A stretch of 64,000 bases of DNA. Source: Ianthella basta. Lineage: Eukaryota; Porifera; Demospongiae; Verongiida; Ianthellidae. The translations under genes and the position numbers were made by a program. The stretch is taken from NCBI GenBank assembly GCA_964019415.1, contig OZ025873.1, positions 7,344,234-7,408,233 of the forward strand, read 5' to 3'. Below are positions 12,124-63,991 of the stretch, piece by piece; within the stretch, counting starts at the first letter, position 1; each line of letters begins with the position of its first letter. The notes below the pieces were generated by a model. It saw only the letters and a list, made by a program, of their open reading frames with translations, searched no databases and was not told the origin of the DNA.

Positions 12124-15100
12124 TCAGGCTTGATTAGCTGTAGCTCCTTCATCTACTCTCATCTCATTCTCCAAATGCTCTGCACCTACTCCACTGCCCA
12201 TTCTATCTTCATCTTCCTCTCCTCCTCCACTCCGCCCACCTCCCCCTTCCACCTGGGCCCCATCCACCACAGGTTGACAGATGTAAGGAGTGTCATAGGT
12301 ATGTGGCTCGGTAGTGTCCTCACCTGCAGACCCTGAGCAGAGTGAGAAGGCATCTACGTGTTTCACACATAACTGACTTGCATGCAACACCATCTTACAC
12401 CTCAGTATACGTACATGTTAGCATAATGCTCACATGCACATAAACACAGCCAGGTGATGCTCCAAACATATTGCAGTAAACTTAAAACAGGATATACTGC
12501 CATGAATGCCAGAAATACAACATCAGTGGCACTCTATCCACAATGGCACATGTGCTCATGATGCTATACCTTCCAAGGTGAGAGGTGCATAAGCTGGGTT
12601 AGCCTTCATGGTGACTTCTTCACACTCATCACTGAGAGTGTTCTCCAAAGTGGACCTGCCAAATTAATAATCATTTATAATCACAAGTATGACAACTTTG
12701 TTCTACACCATACCGGGTAGCTTCATAGACACACATAGGCAAATTAAGCAATACTTTTAGTTTACTAATTCTAATGGTTACCAATTTAGTGAACTTAGTG
12801 AGTAGTGAAAAAGTGCTTAAAATTGTACGCATAAAAATTTTGTACAGGCAAAATTTCTTTTATTCACAAAAACTTCACAATTGCTACTATTATTACTCAC
12901 CATATCCTAGACAGTTCAAAACACAAAATTTACTTGCCTCTCAAATGTTTAGCCTTACGGTAGCTATAAATTATAATTATAGGGAGATTAAGCGTTGGTA
13001 GAAATCAAGCCTTAATTGATGCAATCATAGACAATCCACTCTACATAATTATGATGCAATACAACCAAGTAGCATCACTAGTTGTACATTGTACAGTAAA
13101 CAATTAGTGACAGTGCAGCAGTTTCCCCTTCTCTCACTCTTGAGTAGCTGGTTGACTTGTCTTCCCTTCATCTATGTTGTAGTACTCGGCAACCATCGCA
13201 TCTTGAGGATGCAAATTGGAATGAAAATAATTACCATACACTGCAGTAGTCAGTTGCCATGATCAGGGGTAAACATTGGAGGAGGTAGCCAGCAAATGTT
13301 GATCAAGCTGGGCAGCAGGGGCAAAGGAGGGGGCTGGGCAGCAGCATCTGAAAACTCCATAGTATGAATTCACCACATTGCCAGTAACCAAAATATGAAA
13401 ATGAAAATGAAAATGATTACCATACACTGCAGTTGTCAGTTGCCATGACGATTAGGGTAAACATTAGAGATGGTAGCCAGAAAAAGTTGGTCAAGTTCTG
13501 GGGCCTTGTCACTAGCATCTGAAAACTCCATACCTTGCCAACAACCACATGCACATGCTGTTATGTGTGCATGTACTTACTGCTAAATGCTGCAGCAGTT
13601 GAAGTGGCCACCATTCCTATTCCTTCATCTTGTTGCTTTAAGGAGTATCTGTGACAAACAAAAGACCATCATCCAAAATTATTATTCAGTACTAATGTGT
13701 GTACGTGCTAGTGTGTGTCTGTGACTTAGCTGTAAACAATGCATGCAATTACATAATGAAAGCACACACAAATACAAACCTTCCACTTCTCCTCCAGCAG
13801 ATCAAAGCCACCACAAATGCTACAACCATGCATATCAACAGAATACCAGCTACAACCCAGCCACTGGCTATAACAATAATAGGAATAGCAATAGTAGCTG
13901 GTGGGCATGTGGGAGGTGGTGGATTAGATGTTGTAGGAATGGTAATGTTCATCGAGTAAAATGGCTGCAGTAGTCCTGAGTCCACTCTGGTCTCAATCTC
14001 AACCTGGTACTCCTCCCCTGTCTGGAGACCCTGTGCAGTGAGTTGAGACTGAGTGGCTGGGAGGATGTACCTCAACTGGGCAGCTGGCCCCACCTCCAGG
14101 GGAGTCAGAGTGACCTCATACTGTAACAGTGAGTCACCATCAAACTGAGTGGGAGGAGTCCATTGGAGCAGGAGGGCATTGGAAATAGTTGCTGGACTGT
14201 AACCCACTGTCAGTGAAAGCAAGAATGTAGAACATAAAGTAATATTATTACACAATGCAGCTGGGAGATCAAGTAAAAGTATATCAGTGTACAACTCTAC
14301 TACATAATACATACGTATACATCCAACATGATCATCTATAAGAATATCTTCCTGCACAACTTCAAGACAAATACAATGGTACAAGACGCAGGCCAGCTTG
14401 GAGCTTGTGCTTTGCTTGGGAGCATTGTTCTCCTACCTGTGTTTGTAGTAGTCACGTTGATCCACTCTGTGAATCTGCTGACTGCTGCATCATTGACAGT
14501 TGCTACTTTCAAGCTATACTCCTGTCCAGGTGTCAACCCCAGTACATAAAGGAAACTGCCTCCTTCAAGAGAGACGTTTACCAATGATGCATCAGTGAAA
14601 TCATTAGCTTGTCTCTTTGCTCTGTTGGCAGTGGGTTCGAGCAATAGCACCTGACCACCTGTAATGACATTCATTACTGCACTGGTGGCATTCAATTTGA
14701 GGAGAACAGCAGTGTCTCTTGTGATGTACTGCTCAATGACAGGAATAGGCTGACCTGAGAATGGAATGTGGAATCAAATATGATTAATTGGCATGATACA
14801 GCTCTGGACAATACCAGTTAAGCAGTTTAATACCGAAGTATGTCCACAGCCCATTAATTGCCTACAGCAACTAGCCATATGTGAATTAAAATTCATTGGA
14901 AGGGTTCAGAGAGAATAGGTACGCACTACATCACCATGTATAAATGCATTAACCTTCTTCATTCATGATGTTGACAGTTGCGGTATCAGGTGATCCCTTA
15001 ATGACACCCATAGCTGCAGATGCAGATGGGATCTCCAGGGCAAGAGTGAAGGTCTCGTCAAATTCGGCAATGTCGTCACTAATGATAGGCACATTGAAAG

Positions 15101-18100
15101 TGATCACATTCACTCCAGCAGGGAAGGTCACTGAGAAACTTTCACCCTCGTAGTCAGAGCCACCTGTAAGTGAAGTCATGGGTGAAAGGAGGTATGAAGA
15201 GTTGCAAGGAGGTGAAAGGATGTGAGGATACTCGCAAGAATGTACATTTCATGCTATGGAGCTACACATCTTGTCCTTGCTAGAATTATACTGCAGTAGA
15301 GCCGGACTCTTATGCACAAGCCCCACCACAAGCGTACACACTCGCTAGTATAAAGTGTACGAGAGGTGACAGGACTCACCAATAGCACTTCCATCCTGTG
15401 TGAGGACTGTGACAGTGAAGGCAAAGTCAGGATGGCCCACAAGTGCTTCCAAGGTGATGACAGCATTTCTGTCCACTCCTTCCATCACAGAGTAGTTGGA
15501 GGGATTAAAACGTACTGGAACCATGGCTGTGGGTATAAAGACAATACTCACCATAATCACATAACAGTGTAAGTACATTTGAGAGATTTCATGCGGAAGT
15601 CAATAAATGTGTGGGTTCCAAACATACAAGCAGTATCCAAGATGGTGACAAATGCCACATCTGGAGAGCCAACAGCCACAGCTTCCTGTGCAAAAGGCAG
15701 ACTGAGGGTGGCCCTGAAGTACTCGTCAGGTTCCACAAAGTTGTCTTCATTAGTAGTCACAGGAACTGCCACAGTCACTGAGCCAGCAGAGATGACCACA
15801 TTAGTGGACACACTGGTATAGTCATCAGGATCTGCGTGGAATTGAAGGAATACAAAATTTTAATGTGGTTCTAAGGAATGAATGAAGCAACAATAGACAG
15901 GTGTTAGATCACATCCAACACAAGTATTCACCCTCAGCTGTGATGTCCATGCTAGTGATAGTAACAGTGATGTCCTTTGGTGAAGGCTGGTCCAGTGTAA
16001 TCATCAGGTTAGCTGGAGTGCCCTCAGGAACAGTGTAGTTCTGAGGGCTGAAACTGACGACCACCACTGAAATGGAACATGCATATAGAAGATCAGTACA
16101 CACAGAACAAAGGAAAATAACAATATGCTAACCCATGAGGAATTCAGCTAACCCTCGTCATCCATGATGTTGACAGTTGCAGTGTCAGGTGACCCCTTGA
16201 TGACACCCATAGCTGCAGATGCTGGAGGGATCACCAGGCCAAGAGTGAAGGACTCAGCAAGTTCAGCAATGTTGTCATTATTGATGGGCACATTGAAGCT
16301 CATCACATTCACTCCAGCAGGGAAGGTCACTGAGAAACTTTCACCTTCGTAGTCAGAGCTAACTGTAAATGAATTCATGGGTGAGAGGAGGTGAGGAGAG
16401 GTGAAAGAACATCTTATTATAAATTTATCCTGCAGTAATGCACGTCTCTAGTCTCATGGGCCAAGATCACTAGCTTGTCTTCATTTTTCTCAGATAACAT
16501 CATTGCATGCAAGGTAAAAATGGTATAGAAAGAATAGAATATAGAAAGTGAGAAAGTACGTGAAAGAGAAGGCGAGTAGGGTGGTTCTTCTGCACTTTTC
16601 CCACGTACACAATTGAGATTACACACTCTAGCAAGAAGTGGAACAAAGTGTACAAGTGGTGACAAGACTCACGAAAAGCACTTCCATTTTGTGTGAGGAC
16701 TGTGACAGTGAAGGCAAAGGGATGGGCCACAAGTGCTTCCATGGTGATAACAGCATTGCTGTCCACTCCTTCTGTCACAGAGTAGTTGGATGGATTGAAT
16801 CGTACTGGAATCATGGCTGTAGAGATATATGAAAGGAGAACACAGTCCAATTGATGATTGCATGCACTGTACAGTTGAGGAGCATCATGTGAGGTATTCC
16901 AAGAAGTGAGTGTACCAAACCGGGAATGCCTATCTCAAACATACAAATAGTATCAGTGATGGTGACAAAGGCCACATCTGGAGAGCCAACAGCCACAGCT
17001 TCCTGTGCACCAGGCAGACTGAGGGTGGCACTGAAGTACTCGTCAGGTTCCACGAAGTTGTCTTCATTAGTAGTCACAGGGACTGTCACAGTCACTGAGC
17101 CAGCAGAGATGACCACACTAGTGGACACACCAGTGTAGTCATTAGGGTCTGGGTGGAATTGAAAGGAATTTGAAGACAATGTTGTTCTGACCTTTGAGGA
17201 ATGCATCAAGTGACTATAGACAGATCTTAGACAATATAATGTACAATACTGTTACAGCCACTTACCCTCGGCAGAGATGTCCGTGGTAGTGACAATAATG
17301 GTGATGTCCTTTGGGGAAGGCTGGTCCAGTACAATCATCAGGTTAGCTGGAGTGCCCTCAGGAGCAGTGTAGTTCTGAGGACTAAAACTGACGACCACCA
17401 CTGAAATGGAAGAATTACCATGTCTGTAATAGACGCAAAGTGTGAATACGTAGACATTGGGATGTACGTACTGTACTAACCCTCGTCGTCTATGATGTTG
17501 ACAGTTATATTGTCCGGTGATCCCCTGGTGACAGCCAAAGCCACTGATTCTTCTGGGATCTCCAGGGTAAGAGTGAAGGACTCAACAAGTTCGGCGATGC
17601 CATCATTAATGATGGGCACATTGAAGGTGACCATATTCACACCAGCAGGGAAGGTCAGTGGGAAACTTTCACCCTCGTAGTCAGAGTCACCTTTGTTGGT
17701 TGTGTACGCGAAGTGGTTGGAGCAAGAATAGGAAATGACAGCATTGTCATATATGCATAATAATTATTATACAGTTTTACAATTATCATACATTGAATGA
17801 GTGAAGGTAAGACTTACGAGTAGCACTTCCATCCTGTGCGAGCACTGTGACTGTGAAGCCGTAGGAAGGGTGGTGTGTACGTGCTTCCAAGGTGATGACA
17901 GCATTGCTGTCCACTCCTTCTGTCACAGAGTAGATGGGGCGACTGAACCGTACAGGAATTGAGGCTGTGCAAGTGCAAAGCAGAAACAGTCTACATAAAA
18001 AGTCTTGAATACAACAAAATGTCATGGGACAGTGCATGCTGTCAACATGTTCATTAACTACTACAACATATAAATTATCAAACGTGTACCATCAGTAAGG

Positions 18101-19836
18101 TCTACTGTACATAATGTGTACCTGGACAACCTATAGGAATGGTCATTTCCAGCTGATTTCAGACTAACAGACTTACACAGCAGAACAGATATGTAACAGA
18201 AAACTTGAAGTAGCATCCTGTATTGGTGATGGTGTTATTTTGTCAAGGAAATGTAATTTGTGTGACTGCCTGCTCACAGACAAAGTTAAACTGCAAACAC
18301 ATACTGTCATTATACACACCAACATGTAGAGACTTTGGTTACTCTTTAATTAACTGTAGAAATAGCATTGGTTTACTCTTTGAAAGAAATTCCATCTAGA
18401 AACATTTCCTTAATCCCTACATTGGTCAGAATCCTTATCTACAGAGGCAGTCAGACAGATGAATCTAGATTAATTCATTCACATAGACACACGTTTAACC
18501 ATAGCTGTCCCTTCCCAATTACCACCCACAGGAGTTGACACAAGGCATTACTGTAGCAGCTGTGTAATGTGACTCACGACATGCAATGGCAGTTGATAGC
18601 TCTGAGGTTAAATTCCTAAGGACATCGAGGGTTTCAGCAATGAAAACGTGGTCTGGGTCATTCCCAGTGATGGTCAGTAGCTCTGAGGTGGCATGGTCAA
18701 TCACGTTCATCACCCGGCTACCAAATGCAACACCGTAGTTGGTAGTGCCTGCTGCAACAGTGACAGCTGTAGCATTCTCCAGTCTCTGCTGGTCAAACTC
18801 ATCAGTTTCACCAAAGTAATGAGTGACACCATCAGTAATGACAATGATGACTCTAGAGACACCAACACGACCCTGTTCTTCAAATATCCTAACACACTCC
18901 TCCATAGCTCCTGGAGTGTTGGTTCCACCAGGAGTAATCCTCTCTAGTCTGACCACATTGCGGATGACATTCACCAAAGTGGTTTTGTCAGTGTAAGTGG
19001 TCAAATTGAACTCTCTGAACACATCTCTCCCATACTTGACCATAGTCACCCTGCTGTCCTGAGCTGTGGGGCCAACATTTAGCCCATCAACAATCTGAGA
19101 AATGATGTCTACCAGTGTGATGAAGTCATCATCATTGATACTGTTGGACGAATCAGCAGCAATGCAGTAGTCCACAGGGATGGAGCAGTTTATTTGCACT
19201 GAATTCAAAACAAGAGCAACACAATAGAATACAGTAACATCTGTTCTCCACCCCCAGGCATGTAGCTACTGTTGTTCCAAACAGTGACGTTAACTTTAAT
19301 AAGCCTGTACGGTTCTACGTATGTACAGTCACTCTCTATCCAACATCAGCGATGCACTTAAGCAGTGAATAAACAATAACACTACACATTCAAGTAGCTA
19401 GCTAAGATGGAACGGTACGCACAATATCAGCAGCTAAGCTAATCTTGTAGTGCGCAACAACAACAACAACCATTCCCACACGGTCAACATTAGCTTGTGC
19501 AGCACACCACTCCCTGTGCATGTGATCAGCTCACCTTGAGCTGCCGCACCAAGCAGGCAGGCGAGTGCTGCGCGTATGTAGAGGAAAGACAGGCTTCAAG
19601 TAACATAACTCAGCAACAAACGTTATCAAGGTGCACATATACGCAGTGTCAAGTGAACTGATTTCAAGCAAAGGTTAGCTTGACGCCAATTCGTGGTCGA
19701 GGCCACGTACGTAGCCAGCTAGCTACAGTGTGATTCCCTAAACAGGGAGCTGAAACGAAGCTGGATGCATATAGCGAGCCTGCACCATATACATACCTGC
19801 AATAAGCCTAAGCCTTGCGGCAACAGCATCCATCAT
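12124..19836 (-). CDS. Gene D: VWA / Calx-beta(5) / FN3(2) / transmembrane receptor, beta-tail form (1156 aa)
   Basis: Predicted adhesion receptor. Exons: 19836-19797 and 19567-19535 (signal peptide MMDAVAARLRLIA + ALACLLGAAAQ), 19198-18578 (VWA), then Calx-beta half-domain exons 17964-17818, 17690-17481, 17400-17266, 17148-16945, 16816-16673, 16362-16153, 16066-15932, 15831-15628, 15526-15380, 15163-14954, then FN3 14754-14437, FN3 plus transmembrane 14206-13780, and tail 12655-12570 and 12323-12124. All are joined by GT..AG introns and the total is 1157 codons with stop. Approximate residues: VWA 25-231, five Calx-beta 232-813, FN3 814-919, FN3 plus transmembrane 920-1061, tail to 1156. The tail has NPAYAP, HTYDTP and a Gly/Glu-rich stretch. 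An alternative tail lies at 13134-13648. It is the most diverged of the three complete VWA paralogues. The name and ligand are unknown. Confidence 0.88.
13134..13648 (-). CDS. Alternative alpha tail of gene D (two exons)
   Basis: Exon alpha-1 (13648-13581, 68 nt, phase 2 to 1) begins RYSLKQQDEGIGMVATS and exon alpha-2 (13201-13134, 68 nt) encodes NAMVAEYYNIDEGKTSQP and stops at ATQE. Joined to the phase-2 donor of the transmembrane exon, they give an in-frame protein of 1106 residues. Both exons have consensus AG and GT sites and recur with the frame kept in genes A, B and C, mostly with silent or conservative changes, which argues that they are coding. The two beta exons lie further downstream, so alpha and beta are mutually exclusive ends. 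YYNI resembles a pYxN SH2-binding site. Confidence 0.65.
13260..13526 (-). other. Two copies of a possible decayed tail cassette in gene D
   Basis: Between alpha-1 and alpha-2 are two related segments (about 13525-13430 and 13360-13260). Each starts after a TTTTCAG acceptor and is open in phase 1: the first reads NASDKAPELDQLFLATIS up to a stop, the second NAAAQPPPLPLLPSL up to a stop. Counterparts near 48190-48110 and 63305-63225 have a 1-nt difference in the T run and read in another frame. The gene C copy near 23510 stops at once. It may be a dying alternative terminal exon or simply conserved intron. Confidence 0.3.
13780..14754 (-). other. Membrane-proximal FN3 pair and transmembrane helix of gene D
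   Basis: Exon 14754-14437 encodes one FN3 (LTPGQEYSLKVATVNDAA) whose loop contains NRAKRQ, a dibasic RxKR site. Exon 14206-13780 encodes a second FN3 (LQTGEEYQVEIE) followed by a transmembrane helix around GWVVAGILLICMVVAFVVAL and the stop-transfer CWRRSGR. The exon ends in phase 2, which fits the first exon of either tail module downstream. Confidence 0.88.
14954..17964 (-). repeat. Calx-beta array of gene D: five domains, ten exons
   Basis: Each Calx-beta domain is split over two phase-1 exons: a (144-147 nt) + b (210 nt) or c (135 nt) + d (204 nt). The order is ab-cd-ab-cd-ab. Diagnostic sequences are PVRFNPSNYSVTEGVDSNA (a), IAELxESFTLxLEIP (b), SFSPQNYTVPEGTPA (c) and NEDNFVEPDEYF (d). 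These carry the acidic D..E.DE.F pattern typical of Calx-beta. This is the shortest of the three complete arrays and its units differ most from each other, so it may be nearest to the ancestral order. Confidence 0.9.
18578..19198 (-). other. VWA domain exon of gene D
   Basis: A single 621-nt, phase 1-1 exon encodes a whole VWA domain of about 207 residues. All parts of the metal-ion-dependent adhesion site can be seen: DSSNS (DxSxS), the threonine in GGTNTPGAM, and ITDG. It should therefore be able to bind a divalent cation and an acidic ligand residue (family knowledge). Cysteines near both ends (INCSIP...YC and AIAC) may form a disulphide. Confidence 0.92.
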
Positions 19837-20427: not shown

Positions 20428-20788
20428 CTACTTGAAAATTTGACTGTCTTCCTCCATTCTTAACTTGTCATATGTACAGACTATCCACGCTCCTTTTATT
20501 GTCTCCGTCACAAGTTCCCCCATGGCTGTACCTCTCATCCGTGCACTCAAATATGAGTAGGGAGCATCATCGTAGGGATCAGTGCCATCCTCATCTACAG
20601 GTCACGAGCAGAAAGACACTATTACAAGCAACAGTGTTTACGTAACTGTTATACTGCACTCATCTCTTTACACCATCCATTCATGGCATACTAATACTCA
20701 GCATTCGCCTGCAGTGGGCACATAAGCTGGGTTAGCCTTCATGGCGACCTTGTCAAGCTCATCATCATAGTTTGCTTTCAAAGTGGAC
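20428..20788 (-). CDS. Alternative gamma tail downstream of gene C (two exons)
   Basis: Exon gamma-1 (20788-20709, 80 nt, phase 2 to 1) reads STLKANYDDELDKVAMKANP then AYVPTA. Exon gamma-2 (20594-20428) reads DEDGTDPYDDAPYSYLSARM and ends KLRMEEDSQIFK before the stop. It is homologous to the beta tail at its first exon and has the same phases, so it could be spliced to the transmembrane exon of gene C to give 2542 residues. The donor of gamma-1 is GC rather than GT (GCAG|GCGAAT), whereas the copy after gene A has GT. GC..AG introns do work, but this may also be early decay. It lies 1.5 kb beyond the beta stop of gene C. Alternatively it is the relic of a lost gene. Confidence 0.55.
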
Positions 20789-21251
20789 CTACTGGAGCAA
20801 ACATGAGTGTGGCTATCTTGTGTCGTTGTATACAGTAGAAGCATGTGCATAAACACAATGTCATGCTTGCTAGTGGAGATAATGGTGTCCAATAAATGAT
20901 TGCAAGCAAGTCTAAGAGTACTGCAACTTTGAGCACACAAAACACAAGTATACATCCCTCTTATGGCATGTACAAGACTACTACAGTGAATGCTAGAAAG
21001 AGTAATTGTTCCTCATGTACCCTGGTGCAGAAGGATGCCTTGCCTGCCCTTCACTCATGGTGTTGTACTGTGCAGCCATGTCATTTAGAGGTGCAATGAA
21101 GTGAATGTGCCTATTTGATATACCCACACATTGGTAATACAGAGCTGAACTTAACATTGGAGCATCCACTGCAGTCAGTGTTGTCTGTGGCTACTTGTTG
21201 TGTCTGAAAAAGACATGTCACATGCCTTTGGACCTTGCAATTGGGGCAGCA

Positions 21252-21359
<108 letters not shown>

Positions 21360-21903
21360 ATGTGTGTGCATGTACATTTGTACAGTCATTCCTTACATTT
21401 TTGTAATACTATAATGTACTAACTGTCAAATGCTGTCAGCCCTTTCAAACAGCATATTTATATAATTTATATTATACACTAAAACAAGACATTATAGCAC
21501 ACACACATGTGTATACTATGCTTGTGCATGTGTGACAATAAGAGCTATATATAGAACCTCAAGCTTCAAGCTCTTGCTCTATGCATTTTAATTGAACTTG
21601 TTGTATAGCTAGCAGTCTAATTATGCATACATGCACGTGTACAATCGCTGACAGTATCCACCACAGTATATCCATACTCTGCAATGTTGTGACAATGTAA
21701 ATTTTAGAAGTAGTCAACATTGTAATTATAAGCTGCATAATACAGTGGTTTCAGGCGTGATTAGCTACACAGCTCCATCATCAACTTGCGCCGTATTCTC
21801 CAAATGCTCTCGAGGAGCGAGGGATTGAGTCTGCAGTTGAGGCAGGACAGGGTGCATGGCAATAGTGATCAATTGTGGGTGGTGCACACACCTTTGCACG
21901 AAT

Positions 21904-22324: not shown

Positions 22325-24310
22325 TCAGGCTTGATTAGCTGTAGCTCCATCATCTACTCTCATCTCATTCTCCAAGTGCCCTACGCCTACTCTGCTGCCT
22401 ATTCCATCTTCATATTCCTCTCCTCCTCCACTCCGCCCACCTCCCCCCTCCACCTGGGCCCCATCCACCACAGGTTGACAGATGCAGGGAGTGTCATAGG
22501 TATGTGGCTCGGTAGTGTCCTCACCTGCAGACCGTGAGCAGAGTGGGAAGGCATTTACGTGTGTTCCATAACTGACTTGCATGCAACATCACCTTACACC
22601 TCAGTATACGTGCATGTTGGCATAATGCTCACATGCACATAAACACAGTCAGGTGATGCTCCAAACATATTGCAATATGCTTAAAACAGGAGATATATAC
22701 TGCCATGAATGCCAGAAATACAGCATCAGTGGCACTCTATCCACAATGCATGGCACATGTGCTCATAATGGTATACCTTTCAAGGTGAGAGGTGCATAAG
22801 CTGGGTTGGCCTTCATGGTGACTTCTTCACACTCATCACTGAGAGTGTTCCCCAAAGTAGACCTGCCAAATTAAACAATTATTTACAATCACAAATAAAA
22901 TTATGACAACCTCACTATGCACCATACCAGGTAACTGCACAGACACACATAGGCTAATTAAGCAATAAATTAAGGTTACTAATTTTAATGGGTACTAATT
23001 TAGCGAACTTAGTGAGTAGTGAAAAATCGCTAATATTGTACTCACAAAATTTTGCACAGGCAAAATTTATTTCATACACAAAAACTTAGAATGCTACTAT
23101 TTTTACCCACCAAATCCTAGACTGTTCAAAACACAAAATTTAGTTGCCTCTCAAATGTTTAGCCTTAAGGTAGCTACGTATAAATTATATTTATATATAG
23201 GGAGACTAAGCATTGGTAGCTATCAAGCCTTAAGCGATGCAATCATAACCAATGCAATACAACCAACTAGCATCACTAGTTGAACATATTGTACAATAAA
23301 CAATTAGTGACAGTGCAGCAGTTTCCCCTTCTCTCACTCTTGAGTAGCTGGTTGACCTGTCTCCCCTTCATCTATGTTGTTGTACTCAGCAACCATTGCA
23401 TCTTGAGGATGCAAATTGGGATGAAAACAATTAATATTACCATACACTGCAGTTGTCAGTTGCCATGATTAGGGTAAACTGGTCAAGCTCAGTTGGTCAC
23501 GTCCATCTGAAAACTTTGTAGCATGAACTGCCTTGCCAACAACCACATGCACGTGCTGTTATGTGTGCCATGTACTTACTGCTAAATGCTGCAGCAGTCG
23601 AAGTGGCCACCATTCCTATTCCTTCATCTTGTGGCTTTAAGGAATATCTATGACAAACAAAAACCACTGTCCAATTGTTACTCAATACTAGTGTGTGTAT
23701 GCACTAGTGTGTGTCTGTGGCTTAGCTGTAAACAATGCATGCTAGTGCATATAATGAAGGCATGTTTACCAAAACGCACAAACAAATACAAACCTTTCAC
23801 TCTTACTCCAGCAGATAAAAGCTACCATTAATGTCACAACCATGCACATCAGCAGAATACCAGCTGCAATCCAGCCACTGGCTATAACAATGGTAGTTGG
23901 TTGGCATGTGGGATATGGTGGATTAGATGCCGTAGGAATTGTAATGTTCCTGGAATAAAATGGCTGCAGCAGTCCTGAGTCCATTCTGGTCTCAATCTCA
24001 ACCTGGTACTCCTCCCCTGTCTGGAGACCCTGTGCAGTGAGTTGAGACTGAGCGGCTGGGAGGATGTACCTCACCTGGGCAACTGGCCCCACCCCCAGGG
24101 GGGTTAGAGTGACCTCATACTGTAACAGGGAGTCACCAACACTCTGAGTGGGAGGTGTCCACTGGAGCAGGAGGGTATTGGTAGTAGTTGTTGGACTGTA
24201 ACCCACTGTCAACGAAAGCAGAATTCAGAATATATAGTAATATAATTATACAATGCAGCTGGGAGATCAAGTACAAGTCTATATATATCAGTGTGCATCT
24301 CTACAACATA

Positions 24311-42095: not shown

Positions 42096-43180
42096 ATACT
42101 TTGTATGGAATGCAAACTACTCATGGGTCAGTCAACTTTTAAGGCTTCCAAACAACAGTGGCAACAAAGGGACATTCTCTGAATTATGGCAGGGTGTGTA
42201 GCACGATAGCACAATGTGGGTTGTGTCTGGGTGGGCAACCTAGGGTAGGCTGTGGCAGGCGGGTCAAAGATATAATATATTACAATTACCTATGTTTGGA
42301 TAGGCTGAGAGTTAGTTGTGATGCAGGCTAAGGCAGCAGAACAGGGGGGTGTAGCTATGGCCCCTACATACAAGAGAGTTGCACCATACATACGTACCTA
42401 CACTCCTGATGTAGGGCGTGGAGTGGAACTGGAAGCGGCAGCTAGCTAAAGCGCTGGCCGGAAGCAACCACACAGTAATTGCAAATGGCGGTCAAATCAT
42501 AGATAATCGAGGGAATCAAATGGCACGATCGTTGGGGGCCAGCCTAGCACCACCGCAGATGACCTTCGATAACGGAACCCAGACGAACGCTAGTCGAAGT
42601 TTGTCTTGTATTCACCTTGGAACAGTCATCTGACTGCACTGTGATAGTATTGAATTGAAACTGAAGGAGCTCGGGTAAGGCGAAGAACGGTGGCCAAAAC
42701 GTGTGGTGACGTCAGCATTAGATGGCGCCTTTCTCCCAGGAACGCCTCCCTAACTTCTGGAAACCTCCATTTGTGAACGTGCTCGCAGAGTTATCTAACC
42801 TACAGAAGGTACTTAACCGTCGAAAGCGCCGTAGAACTGTGGGTAAAACATTCTCTTACTCCCTATCGTTCGTGCGCTACAGTTGACGGAGAAGACAGAT
42901 TACCCACACTCCTTTAATTGTCTCCGTCACCAGTTTCCCCCATGGCCGTCCCTCTCATCCGTGCACTCAAATATGAGTAGGGAACATCATAGGTATCAGT
43001 GCCATCCCCATCTACAAGTCACGAGCAGAAAGACACTATTACAAACAACACAGTGTTACACTGCATGATGCACAAGTATACAGTATATGTACCGGAAAGA
43101 ATCAGTAATTAGTGTTTATGTAACTGTTACACTGCACTCATCTCTTTACACCATTCACTCACGGCATACTCGTAATAGAT
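42096..43180. other. Orphan copy of the gamma-region block
   Basis: Segment homologous to 45144-46056 and 59670-61040. It contains gamma-2 but not gamma-1 and is joined at about 43178 directly to a copy of the 5' flank of the VWA genes. It looks like the remains of a unit whose gene was deleted between gamma-1 and the promoter flank, or a partial segmental duplication. Confidence 0.65.
42914..43011 (-). pseudogene. Orphan gamma-2 tail exon
   Basis: 98-nt phase-1 exon, open to a TAA stop: DGDGTDTYDVPYSYLSARMR then GTAMGETGDGDN. The AG acceptor is intact but no gamma-1 exon lies upstream, so it could be used only by splicing from far away (gene B). Shorter than the gamma-2 copies after genes A and C because of the early stop. 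Confidence 0.5.
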
Positions 43181-45138: not shown

Positions 45139-45889
45139 TTTCTATACTTTTTCTGAATGCAAACTACTCATGGGTCAGTCAACTTTTAAGGCTTCCAAAC
45201 AACAGTGGCAACAAAGGGACATTCTCTGAATCATGGCAGGGTGTGTAGCACGATAGCACAATGTGGGTTGTGTCTGGGTGGGCAACCTAGGGTAGGCTGT
45301 GGCAGGCGGGTCAAAGATGTAGTACAATTACCTATGTTTGGATAGGCTGAGAGTTAGTTGTGATGCAGGCTAAGGCAGCAGAACAGGAGGATGTAGCTAT
45401 GGCCCCTACATACAAGAGAGTTGCACCATACATACCTGCACCCCTGATGTAGGGCGTGGAGTGGAACTGGAAGCGGCAGCTAGCTATAGCGCTGGCCGGA
45501 AGCAACCACACAGTAATTGCAAATGGCGGTCAAATGGCACGACCGCGGCTTCGATAACGGCACGCAGACGAACGGTAGTCGAAGTTTGTCTTGTATTCAC
45601 CTTGGAACAGTCATCTGATCGCGCTGTGATAGTATTGAATTGAAACTGAACTAGGATTAGGCGAAAAACGGTGGCCAAAACGTGTGGTGACGTCAGCATT
45701 AAATAGCGCCTTTCTCCCAGGAACGCCTCCCTAACTTCTGGAAACCTCCATTTGTGAACGTGCTAGCGGAGTTATCTAACCTACAAAAGGTACTTAACCG
45801 TCGAAAGCGCCGTAGAACTGTGGGTAAAACATTCTCTTACTCCCTATCGTCCGTGCGCTACAGTTGACGGCGAAGGCAGATTAACCACA

Positions 45890-45990
45890 CACCTTATATT
45901 GTAACCGTCACCAGTTTCCCCCATGGCCGTCCCTCTCATCCGTGCACTCAAATATGAGTAGGGACATCATAGGATCAGTGCCATCCTCAT
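45890..45990 (-). pseudogene. Frameshifted gamma-2 tail exon downstream of gene B
   Basis: Recognisable copy of gamma-2, but single-base losses in the GATACCTATGATGTTCCC part break the frame before the YSYL motif. The gamma-1 exon expected upstream is deleted (junction near 46056). Gene B therefore has no usable gamma tail nearby. Confidence 0.7.
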
Positions 45991-46060: not shown

Positions 46061-46480
46061 CAGTAGAAGCATGTGCATAAACACAATGTCATGCTTGCTA
46101 GTGGAGAAAATGGTGTCAAATAAATGATTGCAAGCAAGTCTAAGAGCACTACAACTTTGAGCACACAAAAACACAAGTATACATCTCTCTTACGACATGA
46201 ACGAGACTACTACAGAATGCTATAAAGAGAATATGTTCCTCACCCTAGTGCAGAAGAGTGTCTTGCCTGCCCTTCACTCATGGTGTTGTACTGTGCAGCC
46301 ATGCCATCTAGAGGTGCAATGAAGTGAATGTGTCTGTTTGATGCACCCAGACATTGGTAATACAGAGTTGAACTTAACATTGGAGCATCCATTGCAATCA
46401 GTGTTTGATGTGGCTACGTGTTGTGTCTGAAAAAGGCATGTCACATGCCTTTGGACCTTGCAATTGGGGCAGCAGTGTGT

Positions 46481-46959: not shown

Positions 46960-49900
46960 CTACACAGCTCCATCATCAACTCGCACCGTATTCTCCAAAT
47001 GCTCTGCATCTACACCGCTGCCCATTCTATCTTCATCTTCCTCTCCTCCTCCACTCCGCCCACCTCCCCCTTCCACCTGGGCCCCATCCACCACAGGTTG
47101 ACAGATGCAGGGAGTGTCATAGGTATGTGGCTCAGTAGTGTCCTCACCTGCAGACCCTGAGCAGAGTGGGAAGGCATCTATGTGTGTTTCACGCATAACT
47201 GACTTGCATGCAACATCACCTTACACCTCAGTATACGTACATGTTGGCATAATGCTCACATGCACATAACATATTGCAATACGCGCTTAAAACAGCAGGT
47301 ATACACTGCCATGGACATGAGAAATACAACATCAGTGGCATTCTATCCACAGTGGGACATATGCTCATGATGCTATACCTTCCAAGGTGAGAGGTGCATA
47401 AGCAGGGTTGGCCTTCATGGCCACTTCTTCACACTCATCACTGAGAGTGTTCCCCAAAGTGGACCTGCCAAATTAAACATTATTATTTATGATCACAGGT
47501 ATGACAACCTCACTCTGCACTTTACCAGGTAGTTGCATAGACACACATAGGCTACTTGCGCAATACCATAAGGCTACTAATTTTACCGGGTACTAATTTT
47601 AGCGAACTTAGTGTGTAGTGAAAATTGCTAAAAATTGTACTCACAAAACTTTGTACAGGCAATGCAATAATATTATTACCCACAAACTCCTAGACTGTTC
47701 AAAACACTAAATTTAGTTGCCTCTCAAATTTTTAGCCTTAAGGCATTTTACTTATAGGGAGATTAAGCATTGGTAGCTATCAAGCCTAAATTCAATACAT
47801 TCATAGACAATTCACCCTATCTATAGTGCAATACAACCTAATAGCATCACTAGTTGAACATTGTACAGTAAACAATTAGTGATAGTGCAGCAGTTTCCCA
47901 TTCTCTCACTCATGAGTATCTGGTTGACTTGTGACCCCTTCATCCATGTTGTAGTACTCGGCAACCATCGCATCTTGAGGATGCAAATTGGGATGCAAAT
48001 AATTACCATACACTGCAGTAGTCAGTTGCCATAACAATTTTTTTTCTTCCATTATGATGTATCAACTGAAGTAACTCAAACAACACACAACATACATGCA
48101 GTAAGTTGCCATGACAATCAGGATAAGCAGTAGAGATGGTAGCCAGAAAAGTTGGTCAAGTTCAGGGGGCCGGGCACCAGCATCTGAAAACTCCATAGCA
48201 TGAACTCACCACATTGCCAGCAACCACATGTGCAGTTATGTATGCATGTACTTACTGCTGAATGCTATGTCAGTCATTCTTATTCCTTCACCTTGTTGCT
48301 TTACGGAATATCTGTGACAAACAAAGACCATCATCCAAAATTATTACTCAATATTAGTGTGTGTATGTGCTGGTGTGTGTCTGTGACATAGCTGTAAACA
48401 ATGCATGCAAGTACATAATTATAATGAAGGCATGTTTACCACAGCGCACACAATACAAACCTTCCACTTCTCCTCCAGCAGATCAAAGCCACCACAAATG
48501 CTACGACCATACATATCAGCAGAATACCAGCTACAATCCAGCCACTGGCTATAGGAATAGTAGCTGGTGGGCATGTGGTAGGTGGTGAATTAGATATTGT
48601 AGGAATTGTAATGTTCCTCAAGTAAAATGGCTGCAGCAGCCCTGAGTCCACTCTGGTCTCAATCTGAACTTGGTACTCCTCCCCTGTCTGGACACCCTGT
48701 GCAGTGAGTTGAGACTGAATGGCTGGGAGGATGTACCTCAACTGGTCAGCTGGCCACACCCCTAGAGGGGCCAAAGTGACCTCATACTGTAATAGGGAAT
48801 CACCAACAAACTGAGTGGGAGGAGTCCACTGGAGTAGGAGAGCATCGGCAATAGTCACTGGACTGTAACCCACTGTCAGCAAATGCAAAATTCAGCATTT
48901 GAAATAATATATACAATGCAACTGGAAGATTGAGTAAAAGTCTATCAGTATGCATCTCTACAACATACGTATGTATACATACAGCATATATTATCATCTA
49001 TAAGAGTATCCTCCTGCACAACTTCAAGACAAAGGTAATGGTACATGACACAGGCCAGCATGAAGCTTGTGCTTTGCTTGGGAGCATTGTTCTCCTACCT
49101 GTGTTTGTAGTAGTGACGTTGATCCACTCTGTGAATCTGCTGACTGCTGCATCATTGACAGTTGCCACTTTCAAGCTATACTCCTGACCAGGTGTCAACC
49201 CTAGTACATAAAGGAAACTGCCTCCTTCAAGAAAGACGTTTATCAATGTTGCATCACTGAAATCATTAGCTTGTCTCTTTGCTCTGTTGGCAGCGGGTTG
49301 GAGCAGTAGCACCTGTCCACCTGTAATGACATTCATGACTACACTGGTGGCATTCAATTTGAGGAGAACAGCAGTGTCTCTTGTGATGTACTGCTCAATG
49401 ACAGGGATAGGCTGGCCTGAGAATGGAATGTGGAATTCAATATGATTAATTGGCATGATATAGATCTGGACATTACCAATTAAGTATTTTAGTACTGAAG
49501 TATATTCACAGCCCAGTAACTGCATGCCTACAGCAACCAGCCCTAAATCTGAATTAAAATTCATTGGAAGGATTCAGAGTGAAAAGGTATACACTACATC
49601 ATCATGTATAAATGCAATAACCTCCATCATTCATGATGTTGACAGTTGCGGTATTAGGTGATCCCTTGATGACACCCATAGCCGCAGATGGTGGTGGGAT
49701 CACCAGGTCAAGACTGAAGGACTCAGCAAGTTCGACAATGTTGTCACTAATGATAGGCACATTGAAAGTGATCACATTCACTCCAGCAGGGAAGGTCACT
49801 GAGAAGCTTTCACCCCCGTAGTCAGAGCCAACTGTGGTACAGAATGGTGAGGAGAGCAGTAAGAATGTGTCTTTTGCTTGAATCAAACTCCAGGGTGAAG

Positions 49901-57154: not shown

Positions 57155-59664
57155 CAAAGGTGTGTAAAAATGTTTCCTCCAAAATCAAGGGCAGATGTAG
57201 GCAGGGGCGTAGGAACACTTTCAAAACTAGGGGGGCCGAAGATAGCAGGTACACCAGAGGTAGATTTGCGAGCGAAGCGAGCGAAAAAATTTTTGAGGCT
57301 AATTAAATTTAGTAGGGAAATGAGAGTGCGAACCTCACGAGCTCAGTTACAGATCTGCATACTCCTCTATTATATAGTAATTTACATTTCATTAACAGCT
57401 ATGATGCCAAAAGCAATGCCACCTGTTGGTTGCATTGCTTTTTCTTCTCTTTGCTGGCTTTTCCAGAAAACTTAGGAGAGATTGCTGAGACAAACAAATA
57501 TTATAGCGCGGTAGGATATTATATTCATACTAGCAGAGTGGCCCGCCTTCGGCGAGCTACGGCATCCAATGCCTGTACCCCGATGCTCTCAGCAACCATG
57601 TTACTGCTACAGCTAAAAAATAATGATTATCGGTTTAAATTCGAACGTAGGACGACAGCAAATCAACTGGTAAAAACCGGAAATTGGTAACAATAATTAG
57701 AAAATGGCCGTCGTCCGCGAAGGAAAAAGCGGAAATGGACGAATAACTCTCTGTCAACCGCAAGACGAGCGACGTCAACCCCGCTATAACCTGACCTCCG
57801 ATGCCCCCAGCAACCACAGCGAGTTTGAGGGCGACGGAGCAAGAAACGCGCGCGCGTATCGCGAACACACACACACACACACACAGACACGGTCGGCTCT
57901 ATATATATTAGATTCAGGTAATGTGTCAATTGCGCAATCAATAAAATGGCTTCCAAGCAAGCCACTAAACCAGAATTTTGAACAACAGGTTTTGTTGGAT
58001 ATAGATCCGAACGAAAATGCTGCGGACTCTTTCTGTATACTTTGGTGAGAGGGCCTGAGCATTTGCTAGCATTTACTAATCAAAGATTGCAGAGGTGAGA
58101 CAGGGCTAAACATATATGGGGGCCTGGTCCCCCCCTTGTGAATTCTGGGGGGGCCATGGCCCCCACGGCCCCCATGGTTCCTACGCCTATGGTAGGGATG
58201 GTGCAGTGTGTACCTGCAAGGTAAAACCATCTGGCAGAAAATTGTAGGAACAAGGAAGAGGGCCGGTCCATGCAACAAGGAGGGCTGCTCCCTGCTAAAC
58301 CCAGGTCATTAACATGCGCTGACTTTAAATACGTTTCACCATCCCTATATCTGTCAACATTTTACTGCACTTGCAGTCTTGCTACCATCCCCTGTTTCCC
58401 CACCTGCGTATTATAGTGCAATTGTACATGTGAGTGTGCAATAGCAAGGGTTGCCACAGGAGACTATACTATTGCCTGCATATGCCCATTTCAGCTACAT
58501 GTTCCCATGTACACATATACCACCATGCATACATCCATGTACAGTGGATTTATGCAACCTTGCAACAGTTCCCATACCTGGGCAGTCGTTACCTAGGATA
58601 CGAACATGGTGGCACGTAATAGGTGTATACAGTACCAGTCCGTATCCTAGGCAACGACCGCCCATGGTGCGGGAACTGTTGCAAGGTTGCATAAATCCAC
58701 TGTACATGACTGAAGCGCTAATGAGGAAAGCCTGAATAGCAAGAAATTGCAGTCTGGTGTGCACCATGGCGCATGTACAGCTGCACTCTGTACACTGTAT
58801 AAGCCATTTGCATCCTGGATATAGGGAGTTAAATTGCACTTCGCAAGTGTTGACAGTGAAGTGTGCTGGTGTACACTGTGTGAATTCAGACCATCATTGG
58901 TGTTTCTCAGGGACTAAACGTGTTACAGTGGTTGTTTGAAACCACAGCTTGACACTGAAATCCACCACTGGTGGCCATGACCTGAAACCACCACTGTTTT
59001 TACAGTGTAGAGCCAAACAGAGAGGGCCTGAAAGTGGGTGTACCGGTTTGCTGACAGCAATGTATAGTGAAGAGCAATGGTAAGCAATAACATGTAATAG
59101 TAGTTGAGCTGGGTGGTTTTCCAGTGTCACAAGGCGGAGCATGCATAGCTACATAAGTGATGAATCCAAAGAATATGGATCCTGCAGCTAGCTGTTACAT
59201 CAAAACACGTAATGGATTGCATGGAAGAGCAGGAGGGCCTAGATTCTAGAGCACAGCAACGTAGATTGAGTAGCAAGCAATTTGCAAGGATAAACCTAAT
59301 AACTATAGTGTATACAGAGCACATGCAACAAAGCAGAAAGATGGGGAAGTTGTAAAGCTGTACCTGTGGATGTAAAGGGGAAGCTGAAGAGCCGAAATGG
59401 GCATGCAGTAGTAGGAGGCGCAGCAAAATGTTGGCAGATGTAGGGATGGTGAAAACGTATTCAAAGTCAGCGGAAGTTAATGACCTGGGTTTTGAATGGA
59501 CCGGCCCTCCTTGTTGCATGGACCGGCTGGCTCCACTCTGCATGGGCCGGCCCTCGTCGTTGTTCCTACGGTTTTTCCACCAGGTGGTGTTACCTTGCAG
59601 GTACACACTGTACCATCCCTACATCTGCCCTTGTTTTTGGAGGAAACATTTTTACACACCCTTG
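57155..59664. mobile_element. Foldback element copy 4, split by a nested hAT-like insertion
   Basis: Left end CAAAGGTGTGTAAA at 57155, right end TTTACACACCCTTG at 59664. The left terminal repeat is interrupted after GCAGATGTAGG by a 990-bp element and resumes with GTAGGGATGGTGCAG. Without the insertion the length would be about 1.5 kb, like copies 2 and 3. Confidence 0.85.
57202..58191. mobile_element. hAT-like non-autonomous element nested in foldback copy 4
   Basis: Starts CAGGGGCGTAGGAAC and ends GTTCCTACGCCTATG, flanked by a 5-bp direct duplication GTAGG (57197-57201 and 58192-58196). It shares terminal and inner blocks, inverted, with the 344-bp element at 1290. About 400 bp in the middle (roughly 57525-57910, including an AC tract) is absent from that copy and may be a further insertion. 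No transposase frame. Confidence 0.75.
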
Positions 59665-59669
59665 TTTCT

Positions 59670-60150
59670 ATACTTTGTATGGAATGCAAACTACTCATGG
59701 GCCAGTCAACTTTTAAGGCTTCCAAACAACAGTGGCAACAAGGGACAATCTCTGAATCATGGCAGGGTGTGTAGCACGATAGCACAATGTGGGTTGTGTC
59801 TGGGTGGGCAGCCTAGGGTAGGCAGTGGCAGGTGGGTCAAAGATATATTACAATTACCTATGTTTGGAATACTCTATAGTATCTAACCTATGACAATATA
59901 ATTATACTAAAAGCTCAATTTTCATTTGTATGTATGAACGACCCCCATGTGTTTCGGGGATTGTGTTCAGTCAACTTTTAAGGCTTCCAAACAACAGTGG
60001 CAACAAGGGACGTTCTCTGAATCATGGCAGGGTGTGTAGCACGATAGCACAATGTGGGTTGTATTGTAATTTGTATGTATGAATGACCCCCATGTGTTTC
60101 GGGGATTGTGTTCTAATGATGATGATGATGATGATGACCTATGTTTGGAT
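59670..60150. repeat. Local duplication with a possible LINE/SINE 3' end
   Basis: A block with ACTTTTAAGGCTTCCAAACA and GGCAGGGTGTGTAGCACGAT occurs twice here. Between and after the copies stands a short sequence, GACCCCCATGTGTTTCGGGG (about 59940 and 60084); the second copy ends in a (GAT)n run at 60114-60137. Sequence plus simple trinucleotide tail suggests the 3' end of a retroposon. The family is not identified. Confidence 0.5.
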
Positions 60151-60677
60151 AGGCTGAGAGTTAGTTGTGATGCAGGCTAAGGCAGCAGAACAGGGGGATG
60201 TAGCTATGGCCCCTACAGAGTTGCACCATACATACGTACCTACACCCTTGATGTAGGGCGTGGAGTGGAACTGGAAGCGGAAGCTAGCTAAAGCGCTGGC
60301 CGGAAGCAACCACACAGTAATTGCAAATGGCGGTCAAATCATAGATAATCGAGGGAATCAAATGGCACGATCGTTGGGGGCCAGCCCCTCCACCTCGAGG
60401 TGGAGGGACTGGCGCGCCAGACTAGCACCACCGCAGATGACCTTCGATAACGGAACGCAGACGAACGCTAGTCGAAGTTTGTCTTGTATTCACCTTGGAA
60501 CAGTCATCTGACTGCGCTGTGATAGTATTGAATTGAAACTGAAGGAGCTCGGGTAAGGCGAAGAACGGTGGCCAAAACGTGTGGTGACGTCAGCATTAGA
60601 TGGCGCCTTTCTCCCAGGAACGCCTCCCTAACTTCTGGAAACCTCCATTTGTGAACGTGCTCGCAGAGTTATCTAAC

Positions 60678-61147
60678 CTACAGAAGGTACTTACCCGTCG
60701 AAAGCGCTGTAGAACTGTGGGTAAAACATTCTCTTACTCCATATCGTTCGTGCGCTACAGTTGACGGAGAAGACAGATTACCCACACTCCTTTTATTGTC
60801 TCCGTCACCAGTTTTCCCCATGGCCGTCCCTCTCATCCGTGCACTCAAATATGAGTAGGAAACATCATAGGTATCAGTGCCATCCTCATCTACAAGTCAC
60901 GAGCAGAAAGACACTATTACAAACAACACAGTGTTACACTGCATGATGCACAAGTATACAGTATATGTACCGGAAAGAATCAGTAATTAGTGTTTATGTA
61001 ACTGTTACACTGCACTCATCTCTTTACACCATTCACTCACGGCATACTCGTAATACTCATCATTCACCTGCAGTGGGTACATAAGCTGGGTTAGCCTTCA
61101 TGGCAACCTTGTCAAACTCATTCTCATAGTTTGCTTCCAAAGTGGAC
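60678..61147 (-). CDS. Alternative gamma tail downstream of gene A (two exons)
   Basis: Gamma-1 (61147-61068, 80 nt, phase 2 to 1, GT donor) reads STLEANYENEFDKVAMKANP then AYVPTA. Gamma-2 (60889-60678, 212 nt) reads DEDGTDTYDVSYSYLSARMR and continues to KYLL before the stop. The phases match the transmembrane exon of gene A. Both splice sites are canonical here. The C-terminal extension differs from the gene C copy because of a frame difference after GTAMG, so only the part up to there is conserved. Confidence 0.55.
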
Positions 61148-61606
61148 CTACTGGAGCAAACATGAGTGTGGCAATCTTGTGTCATCGTATACAGTAGAAG
61201 CATGTGCATAAACACAATGTCATGCTTGCTAGTGGAGAAAATGGTGTCCAATAAATGATTGCAAGCAAGTCTAAGAGTACTGCAACTTTGAGCACACAAA
61301 ACACAAGTACACATCTCTCTTATGACATGTACGAGATTGCTACAGTGAATGCTAGAAAGAGTAATTGTTCCTCACCCTAGTGCAGAAGAGTGCCTTGCCT
61401 GCCCTTCACTCACGGTGTTTTACTGTGCAGCCATGTCATCTAGAGGTGCAATGAAGTGAATGTGTCTGTTTGATGCACCAACACATTGGCAATACAGAGT
61501 TGAACTTAACATTGGAGCATCCACTGCAATCAGTGTTTGATGTGGCTACGTGTTGTGTCTGAAAAAGGCATGTCACATGCCTTTGGACCTTGCAATTGGG
61601 GCAGCA

Positions 61607-61616
61607 GTGTGTGTGT

Positions 61617-61699
<83 letters not shown>
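61607..61699. repeat. (TG)n microsatellite
   Basis: About 90 bp of TG in the 3' flank of gene A, the counterpart of the tracts downstream of genes B and C. Confidence 0.95.
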
Positions 61700-61700
<1 letters not shown>

Positions 61701-62099
61701 ATGTACATTTGTACAGTCATTACTTACACTACTGTAATACTACAATGCACTAACTGTCAAATGCTGTCAGCCCTTTCAAACAGCATATTTATATAATTTA
61801 TATTATACACTAAAACAAGACATTATAGCACACACACATGCGTATACTATGCTTGTGCATGTGTGACAATAAGAGCTATATATAGAACCTCAAGCTTCAA
61901 GCTCTTGCTCAGTCTATGCATTTTAATTGAACTTGTTGTATAGCTAGCAGTCTAATTATGCATACATGCACGTGTACAATCTCTGACAGTATCCACCACA
62001 GTACATCCATACTCTGCAATGTTGTGACAATGTAAATTTTAGAAGTAGTCAACATTGTAGTTATCAGCTGCATAATACAGTGGTTTCAGGCTTGATTAG

Positions 62100-63991
62100 C
62101 TACACAGCTCCATCATCAACTCGCGCTGTATTCTCCAAATGTTCTACACCTACGCCGCTGCCTATTCCATCTTCATCTTCCTCTCCTCCTCCACTCCGCC
62201 CACCTCCCCCTTCCACCTGGGCCCCATCCACCACAGGTTGACTGATGTAGGGAGTGTCATAGGTATGTGGCTCGGTAGTGTCCTCACCTGCAGACCATGA
62301 GCAGAGTGGGAAGGCATCTATGTGTGTTTCACACATAACTGACTTGCATGCAACACCACCTTACACCTCAGTATACGTACATGTTAGCATAATGCTCACA
62401 TGCACATAACATGTACAGCTGGTGATGCTCCAAACATATTGCAATACGCGCTTAAAACAGAAGGTATATACTGCCATGGACATGAGAAATACAACATCAA
62501 TGGCACTACTTCCACAGTGGCCCATGTGCTCATGATGATATACCTTCCAAGGTGAGAGGTGCATAAGCTGGATTAGCCTTCATGGTGACTTCTTCACACT
62601 CATCACTAAGAGTATTCCCCAAAGTGGACCTGCCAAATTAAACATTATTATTTACAATCACAGGTATGACAACCTCACTCTGCACTTTACCAGGTAGTTG
62701 CATAGACACACATAGGCTACTTGTGCAATACCTTAAGGCTACTAATTTTACCACTACTCACTAATTTAGCAAACTTAGTGAGTAGTGAAAATTGCTAAAA
62801 ATTTGTACTCACAAAATTTTGTACAGGCAATGCAAAAATATCACTATACACAAACTTCAGAATTGCTACTATTATTACCCACCAAATCCTAGACTGTTCA
62901 AAACACTAAATTTAGTTGCCTCTCAAATTTTTAGCCTTAAGGCATTTTACTTATAGGAAGAGTAAGCATTGGTAGCTATCAAGCCTTAATTCAATACAAT
63001 CATAGACAATCCACTCTACCTATGGTGCAATACAACCTAACAGCATCACTAGTTAAACATTGTACAGTAAACAATTAGTGACAGTGCAGCAGTTTCCCCT
63101 TCTCTCACTCTTGAGTAACTGGCTGATTTGTCTGCCCTTCATCCATGTTGTAGTACTCGGTAAACATTTCATCTTGAGGATGCAAATTGGGATGCAAATA
63201 ATTACCATACACTGCAGTAGTCAGTTGCCATGACAATCAGGATAAGCAGTAGAGATGGTAGCCAGAAAAGTTGGTCAAGCTCAGGGGGCCGGGCACCAGC
63301 ATCTGAAAACTCCATAGCATGCACTCACCACATTGCCAGCAACCACATGTGCAGTTATGTGTGCATGTACTTACTGCTGAATGCTATGTCAGTCATTCTT
63401 ATTCCTTCACCTTGTTGCTTTACGGAATATCTGTAACAAACAAAGACCATCATTCAAAATTATTACTCAATACTAGTGTGCGTATGTGCTGGTGTGTGTC
63501 TGTGACTTAGCTGTAAACAATGCATGCAAGTACATAATTATAATGAAGGCATGTTTACCACAGCGCACACAATACAAACCTTCCACTTCTCCTCCAGCAG
63601 ATCAAAGCCACCACAAATGCTACGACCATACATATCGGCAGAACACCAGCTACAATCCAGCCACTGGCTATAGCAATAGTAGATGGCGGGCATGTGGGAG
63701 GTGGCGGACTGGATATTGTAGGAATTGTAATGTTCCTCAAGTAAAATGGCTGCAGCAGCCCTGAGTCCACTCTGGTCTCAATCTGAACTTGGTACTCCTC
63801 CCCTGTCTGGACACCCTGTGCAGTGAGTTGAGACTGAGTGGCTGGGAGGATGTACCGTAACTGGGTAGCTGGCCACACCCCTAGAGGGGCCAAAGTGACC
63901 TCATACTGTAATAGGGAATCACCAACAAACTGAGTAGGAGGAGTCCACTGGAGTAGGAGAGCATCGGCAATAGTCGCTGGACTGTAACCCA
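62100..63991 (-). CDS. Gene A (partial, 3' end): FN3 / transmembrane / beta tail
   Basis: Last exons of a further family member running off the right edge. Exon 63991-63580 encodes an FN3 (VQTGEEYQVQIE) and a transmembrane helix around GWIVAGVLPICMVVAFVVAL, then CWRRSGR. Tail exons 62629-62544 (NPAYAP) and 62287-62100 (HTYDTPYISQ, acidic Gly-rich, ending VDDGAV) follow. Very close to gene B in this part, so VWA and Calx-beta exons are expected upstream but cannot be seen. Confidence 0.85.
63105..63430 (-). CDS. Alternative alpha tail of gene A (two exons)
   Basis: Alpha-1 (63430-63375, 56 nt) reads RYSVKQQGEGIRMTDIAFS, as in gene B. Alpha-2 (63172-63105, 68 nt) reads NEMFTEYYNMDEGQTNQP and ends VTQE. 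Sizes, phases and the EYYN core are kept. Confidence 0.63.

Follow-up and report, generated by a model that had tools for sequence, protein, structure and literature searches.

The 64-kb window analyzed here (coordinates 1-64,000; C6:7344234-7408233 of the sponge Ianthella basta) carries on its minus strand four tandem receptor genes headed by a VWA domain, named A to D. We found that the exons downstream of the transmembrane (TM) exon join in one open frame, and consider it probable that each VWA receptor gene has a single linear cytoplasmic tail, made of the consecutive exons TM-alpha1-alpha2-beta1-beta2, with gamma as the 3' part of a duplicated block. The preliminary description of this DNA had instead taken alpha, beta and, behind A and C, gamma for terminal modules that exclude one another, the choice being made by splicing or alternative polyadenylation.

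Using tblastn over the window and nine adjoining stretches, we mapped seven tandem VWA receptor genes with both alpha and beta, namely A, B, C and D and, beyond the window, g4, g5 and g6 (TM at C6 positions 7415297, 7427690 and 7434567, respectively). In g7 (TM 7467307) this mapping found a gamma tail and no other tail, and in g8 and g9 a beta-1-like exon follows TM at a short distance. Having no alpha-beta set, g7 (alpha'/gamma), g8, g9, a broken copy at about 7476 kb and two Fn3-like genes at window positions 1-11200 were excluded from the alpha/beta tests.

The alpha-2 border and the joined tail frame

The exon positions described earlier all correspond to minus-strand splice-like borders (24 of 24), 20 of them with a preceding AG and 4 being TM donors followed by GTTTGT. 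The phases also agreed with the description: the TM exon leaves in phase 2, alpha-1 and beta-1 run from phase 2 to 1, and the second exons enter in phase 1. The alpha and beta exons of the window are as follows.

13780..14206, minus strand: gene D Fn3-like and TM exon, phase 1 to 2
13581..13648, minus strand: gene D alpha-1, 68 nt, phase 2 to 1
13138..13201, minus strand: gene D alpha-2, 64 nt to donor-like GTGAGA, phase 1 to 2
13134-13136, minus strand: gene D alpha-2 in-frame TGA, inside putative intron
12570..12655, minus strand: gene D beta-1 (NPAY), 86 nt, phase 2 to 1
12124..12323, minus strand: gene D beta-2 (YDTP) with stop, ATTAAA 9 nt behind
12332, minus strand: gene D beta-2 alternative in-phase acceptor, used in the whole-gene model
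23794..24205, minus strand: gene C Fn3-like and TM exon
23580..23647, minus strand: gene C alpha-1
23338..23401, minus strand: gene C alpha-2 (EYNN) to donor-like site
22777..22862, minus strand: gene C beta-1
22325..22524, minus strand: gene C beta-2 with stop
48461..48872, minus strand: gene B Fn3-like and TM exon
48256..48311, minus strand: gene B alpha-1, 56 nt
47910..47973, minus strand: gene B alpha-2 to donor-like site
47379..47464, minus strand: gene B beta-1
46960..47147, minus strand: gene B beta-2 with stop
63580..63991, minus strand: gene A Fn3-like and TM exon
63375..63430, minus strand: gene A alpha-1, 56 nt
63109..63172, minus strand: gene A alpha-2 to donor-like site
62544..62629, minus strand: gene A beta-1
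62100..62287, minus strand: gene A beta-2 with stop

According to the preliminary description, alpha-2 ends in a stop codon of its own. From the alignment of the seven genes, we observed that the 3' end of alpha-2 always reads CA(A or T)GA/GTGAGAGAA, the slash marking the putative border, so that the TGA sits within a donor-like GA/GTGAGA kept at the same position in all of them; beta-2 ends in a plain stop. Cut at this site, alpha-2 is 64 nt long (79 in g6) and leaves in phase 2, which is the phase in which beta-1 enters. Although alpha-1 varies in length (56, 68 or 74 nt), its sum with alpha-2 is divisible by 3 in 7/7 genes, and the frame TM-alpha1-alpha2-beta1-beta2 stays open up to the beta-2 stop in every gene of the set. 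The apparent alpha-2 stop requires no explanation as a stop, because GTGA behind any phase-2 exon inevitably reads as nnG-TGA. To judge from this pattern, the TGA is better read as part of a 5' splice site than as a stop.

In the linear tail that we infer, the phases would run 1-2, 2-1, 1-2, 2-1 and 1-stop, and the alpha-2 TGA would be the start of the downstream intron (GA/GTGAGA), read through in frame. The product would carry YxN, NPxY and YDTP motifs together on a single tail, presumably serving SH2- and PTB-type partners. The alpha pair is symmetric (phase 2 to 2) and could thus also be skipped, and alpha may be optional, either by skipping or by ending in the alpha-2/beta-1 intron.

Exclusive modules had been proposed on the grounds that each module alone completes the frame, which is correct. 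However, frame is no barrier to joining: alpha and beta joined are open in all seven genes, and by phase alone the combinations alpha-1 with beta-2, alpha with gamma, and beta-1 with gamma-2 also stay in frame. The g7 tail has the same design in clearly diverged sequence, with alpha-1' of 74 nt, alpha-2' of 64 nt ending CAGG/GTGAGG, gamma-1 of 80 nt, and gamma-2. Here TM-alpha1'-alpha2'-gamma1-gamma2 forms one open frame, so joining of the blocks keeps the frame in this gene as well.

The tyrosine motifs of the preliminary description (EYYN, NPAY, YDTP and YSYL) are present, with the correction that gene C reads EYNN and not EYYN. An open frame with NPAY (NPAN in g4) follows the TM segment, which we assigned by eye from the hydrophobic stretch. 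In g4, HGSN stands for EYYN, NPAN stands for NPAY and the YDTP stretch is deleted; the last deletion is also found in g6. Losses of this kind are to be expected of a tail in which alpha and beta work as a unit; they come from two genes, which are related. Lacking the EYYN and NPAY tyrosines and YDTP, g4 (C6:7413843-7414780) is perhaps a receptor with a silenced tail.

Coding status of the exons and weighing of the alternatives

The earlier reading of alpha and beta as phase-matched exons with distinct tyrosine motifs stands, and both look genuinely coding. When neutral evolution was simulated at intron rates on the tree of the introns, not one of 5000 runs retained both an open frame and GT/AG borders in all seven copies of alpha, and on average 0.48 of the seven copies stayed intact; without indels, the result was again 0/5000, with a mean of 1.23. 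The simulation started from the gene D sequence, its indel rate was set by us from intron gap counts, and the borders scored were those of the linear model. All three alpha gaps are multiples of three, compared with 18 of 81 gap classes in the four intervals that separate the tail exons. One of five aligned gaps in beta-2 is 11 nt long, yet all beta-2 lengths agree modulo 3.

As for substitutions, the ratio of nonsynonymous to synonymous rates (omega, or dN/dS) was 0.65 in beta (twice the log-likelihood difference, 2dlnL, 5.8) and 0.5 in the TM exon (2dlnL 11.7). Pooled pairwise omega was 0.47 for alpha, 0.49 for beta and 0.43 for TM over the seven genes, and 0.65, 0.34 and 0.39, respectively, over the five closer genes. 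Genes g4-g6 alone gave 1.29 for alpha, from 6 differences. Alpha dN/dS as sole proof of function was discarded as too weak. Alpha is intact beyond the neutral expectation; an alpha omega below 1 is not significant by itself. On this evidence alpha is coding, but loosely constrained. Its coding status speaks for the linear tail and for exclusive modules alike.

Several observations weigh against the linear tail. One is that the alpha omega of about 0.6 (0.58 by IQ-TREE; 0.65 by a grid, with 2dlnL 2.9) does not differ significantly from 1 by itself. Scored with a small matrix built from gene D itself, the gene D alpha-2 donor AGA/gtgaga reaches 4.23, the lowest value, the other 17 donors of the gene D model ranging from 4.68 to 10.97, and 15.6% of the 4578 minus-strand GTs in the window reach the alpha-2 donor score. 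The polyadenylation-like hexamers AATAAA/ATTAAA were counted five times in the alpha-2/beta-1 segments (2478 nt in all), in four of the seven genes (D, g4 and g6 once each, C twice), and not once in 4200 nt of the remaining three tail introns. These intronic hexamers are suggestive of an alpha-only end in some genes.

The same hexamers are absent from the alpha-2/beta-1 segments of A, B and g5 and from the alpha-2'/gamma-1 intron of g7. Their offsets in the alpha-2/beta-1 intron are +61 in g4 and g6 and +262 to +269 in D and C; given the matching distances, the hexamers of each pair may be inherited, leaving perhaps three independent cases. Behind beta-2, AATAAA/ATTAAA lies within 200 nt in 5/7 genes, and in D, C and g5 it follows the stop at 8-15 nt.

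The weak alpha-2 donor and the hexamers in D, C, g4 and g6, absent from the other tail introns, could be taken as a sign of exclusive modules. We consider this very unlikely, as the donor-like GTGAGA is kept in all seven genes exactly where the beta-1 phase results and recurs in alpha-2' of g7, the hexamer is missing from four genes, and gamma is disabled in most of its remnants (see below). Alternatively, the alpha-2 donor may compete with polyadenylation in the next intron, so that the same gene would give a short alpha-only and a long alpha-plus-beta tail. Such nested tails are favored by the weakness of a donor that overlaps an in-frame stop, together with the AATAAA/ATTAAA of the following intron in 4/7 genes; the absence of the hexamer from A, B, g5 and g7 and its varying position make them quite unlikely. 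In a broader form, the donor overlapping an in-frame stop would act as a tail-length switch across the family, donor use leading to the long alpha-plus-beta tail with YxN, NPxY and YDTP, donor failure with intronic polyadenylation leading to the alpha-only form and gamma being a possible third choice behind A. This we regard as doubtful, and we retain the linear tail.

The gamma block and its remnants

The beta-1/gamma-1 homology noticed earlier was confirmed (77-84% identity over 71-75 nt), indicating a tail duplication. Gamma, however, had been presented as an intact third module, and this did not stand: behind C, gamma-1 has a GC donor and gamma-2 is frameshifted, and behind both A and C an alpha-2-like relic precedes gamma-1. 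Behind A, C, g4 and g5, gamma-1 is preceded by such an alpha-2-like sequence (DMAAQYNTMSEGQARHPSAP); behind B and near 7444 kb, alpha-2' comes before gamma-2 alone, with no gamma-1. The last 12 nt of alpha-1' persist behind A and C, and B has a blastn match at the same query position. The complete alpha1'-alpha2'-gamma1-gamma2 set is found in g7. The remnants in the window are listed below.

61755..61766, minus strand: behind A, last 12 nt of alpha-1'
61376..61439, minus strand: behind A, alpha-2' relic, in-frame TAA
61068..61147, minus strand: behind A, gamma-1, intact
60678..60889, minus strand: behind A, gamma-2, open to stop
46244..46307, minus strand: behind B, alpha-2' relic with intact acceptor and donor, not followed by gamma-1
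45805..45960 (tblastn range), minus strand: behind B, gamma-2 remnant with early stop; second copy from near 43006
21682..21810, minus strand: behind C, second partial copy of A-type beta-2 3' end and flank, 95% over 129 nt
21424..21435, minus strand: behind C, last 12 nt of alpha-1'
21021..21084, minus strand: behind C, alpha-2' relic, acceptor AG changed to AA
20709..20788, minus strand: behind C, gamma-1, donor GC
20428..20594, minus strand: behind C, gamma-2, frame shifted after the YSYL part

Outside g7, both gamma exons have normal borders in one of six remnants, that behind A, the other five having lost either an exon or a splice site of gamma. In remnant A, alpha-2' contains an in-frame TAA, with gamma-1 and gamma-2 intact. 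Remnant C has an alpha-2' acceptor AA in addition to the gamma-1 donor and gamma-2 frame changes; remnant g5 also has the acceptor AA and has lost the gamma-2 acceptor. In remnant g4, the alpha-2' acceptor is lost, with a frameshift, gamma-1 reads NPAH, and gamma-2 was not found at this locus. Gamma-1 is absent from remnant B, which has two gamma-2 copies with early stops, and from the remnant near 7444 kb. The extra beta-2 3' end behind C is, to judge from its match to the A type, a mark of unequal recombination.

Substitutions in gamma-1 gave no sign of constraint in seven pairs involving g4 or g5 (6-9 amino-acid changes per about 61 sites, 0-1.5 synonymous changes per about 17). Over gamma-1 and the gamma-2 core, we counted 6 synonymous and 2 amino-acid changes between A and g7, 5 and 3 between C and g7, and 4 and 5 between A and C; these pairs, in which amino-acid sites outnumber synonymous ones about three- to fourfold, are constrained or undecided. 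On these counts gamma was once a working tail, and it may or may not still be one behind A or C.

Behind A, gamma-1/gamma-2 might be a real alternative end to beta-1/beta-2. Both exons are intact there, they differ from g7 mainly at synonymous sites, and g7 shows that a gamma end can serve alone in frame. On the other hand, the preceding alpha-2' is broken, 5/6 remnants are without a gamma exon or splice site, and the A/g7 conservation is possibly older than the remnant, which makes a functional gamma end rather unlikely. Gamma looks like the 3' half of a second, duplicated alpha-beta-type block and, except possibly behind A, like a decaying remnant of that block.

This second block would be complete in g7 and a remnant elsewhere, starting inside alpha-1' behind A and C. 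The simplest origin that we can infer is a deletion fusing the region behind beta-2 to a g7-like gene, copies of which then spread along the array. A remnant start inside alpha-1' is as expected from such a joining.

Gene architecture, relatives and meaning of the tail

The gene D model comprises a signal peptide, VWA, Calx-beta, Fn3, TM and tail. Calx-beta matched Pfam in five stretches (E 7.5e-81) and Fn3 in one; a second Fn3-like exon is our reading. From the second exon through the Fn3-like exon before TM, all exons are of phase 1 to 1, and the TM exon is 1 to 2. In genome searches with the best candidates scored, the TM exon gave 13 matches at E ≤ 0.001 and alpha-2 DNA gave 7, every one on this C6 stretch.

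The two adjacent minus-strand genes at window positions 1-11200 show Fn3-like matches as well as a match to the TM exon; NPAY tail exons were recognized there by eye, and VWA gave no match. A tandem repeat lies between exons of an Fn3-like gene at window positions 7663-8365 (57-nt unit, 12.2 copies, 85% matches). The apparently broken copy (C6:7475941-7476754) has a partial VWA match, beside which lie an Fn3/TM piece, a long GT repeat and a start like that of alpha-1'.

The whole gene D model with the beta tail matched 138 proteins among 8000 scored candidates of a large protein set; of the 120 matches listed, nearly all have Calx-beta, and the names that bear an organism are bacterial. The Fn3-TM-tail part gave no match at E ≤ 1 among 8000 scored candidates. 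Exons encoding M(E or Q)ANPAY matched at 54 places genome-wide, 12 of them in this array, against 0 for the control, and this exon may be shared as a tail exon by other receptor families. Matches cluster at C1:13.83-14.33 Mb (17), C15:2.74-2.93 Mb (7) and C11:4.67-4.80 Mb (6). A tblastn search with alpha-1, alpha-2 and alpha-2' in 12 MxANPAY loci returned two rows, both with E > 0.5 over 9-10 residues, taken as chance. In seven of these 12 loci we examined the NPAY stretches, and in one more, L022, the open reading frames. One locus, L025, has four NPAY-containing open stretches on one strand, at 5944, 6295, 6852 and 9868, as if NPAY tail exons had multiplied.

Integrin beta and the LDL-receptor are single-pass receptors with multi-exon tyrosine tails containing NPxY, and the tails here are alike in being short, with NPxY and other tyrosine motifs, whereas the ectodomain here is VWA, Calx-beta and Fn3. 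Alternatively spliced cytoplasmic tails are known from integrin beta-1 variants and from the long and short forms of CEACAM1. One ectodomain with several tails was the earlier proposal for this array as well, but here a single frame joins alpha to beta. The sponge aggregation factor is a secreted proteoglycan core without a transmembrane tail; the genes here, in contrast, are VWA-headed, with a transmembrane segment and a tyrosine tail in the model. Demosponge aggregation factors have Calx-beta domains and are linked to allorecognition (PMC10815962); Calx-beta domains and clustered genes recur here. In a literature search we recognized no account of such tails, which does not show their absence from print.

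Taken together, real exons, an ordinary linear tail and a gamma that is mostly relic are most likely. An internal exon can pass for a terminal one, since a phase-2 exon with a GTGA donor always shows an in-frame TGA, and reading the tail as linear corrects a tempting misreading of swappable tails. The tails of this tandem receptor family would evolve blockwise, a duplicate block being in decay and one gene, g4, having lost the EYYN, NPAY and YDTP tyrosines. Should the nested switch prove right, a receptor array could be rewired by simple means at the sequence level.

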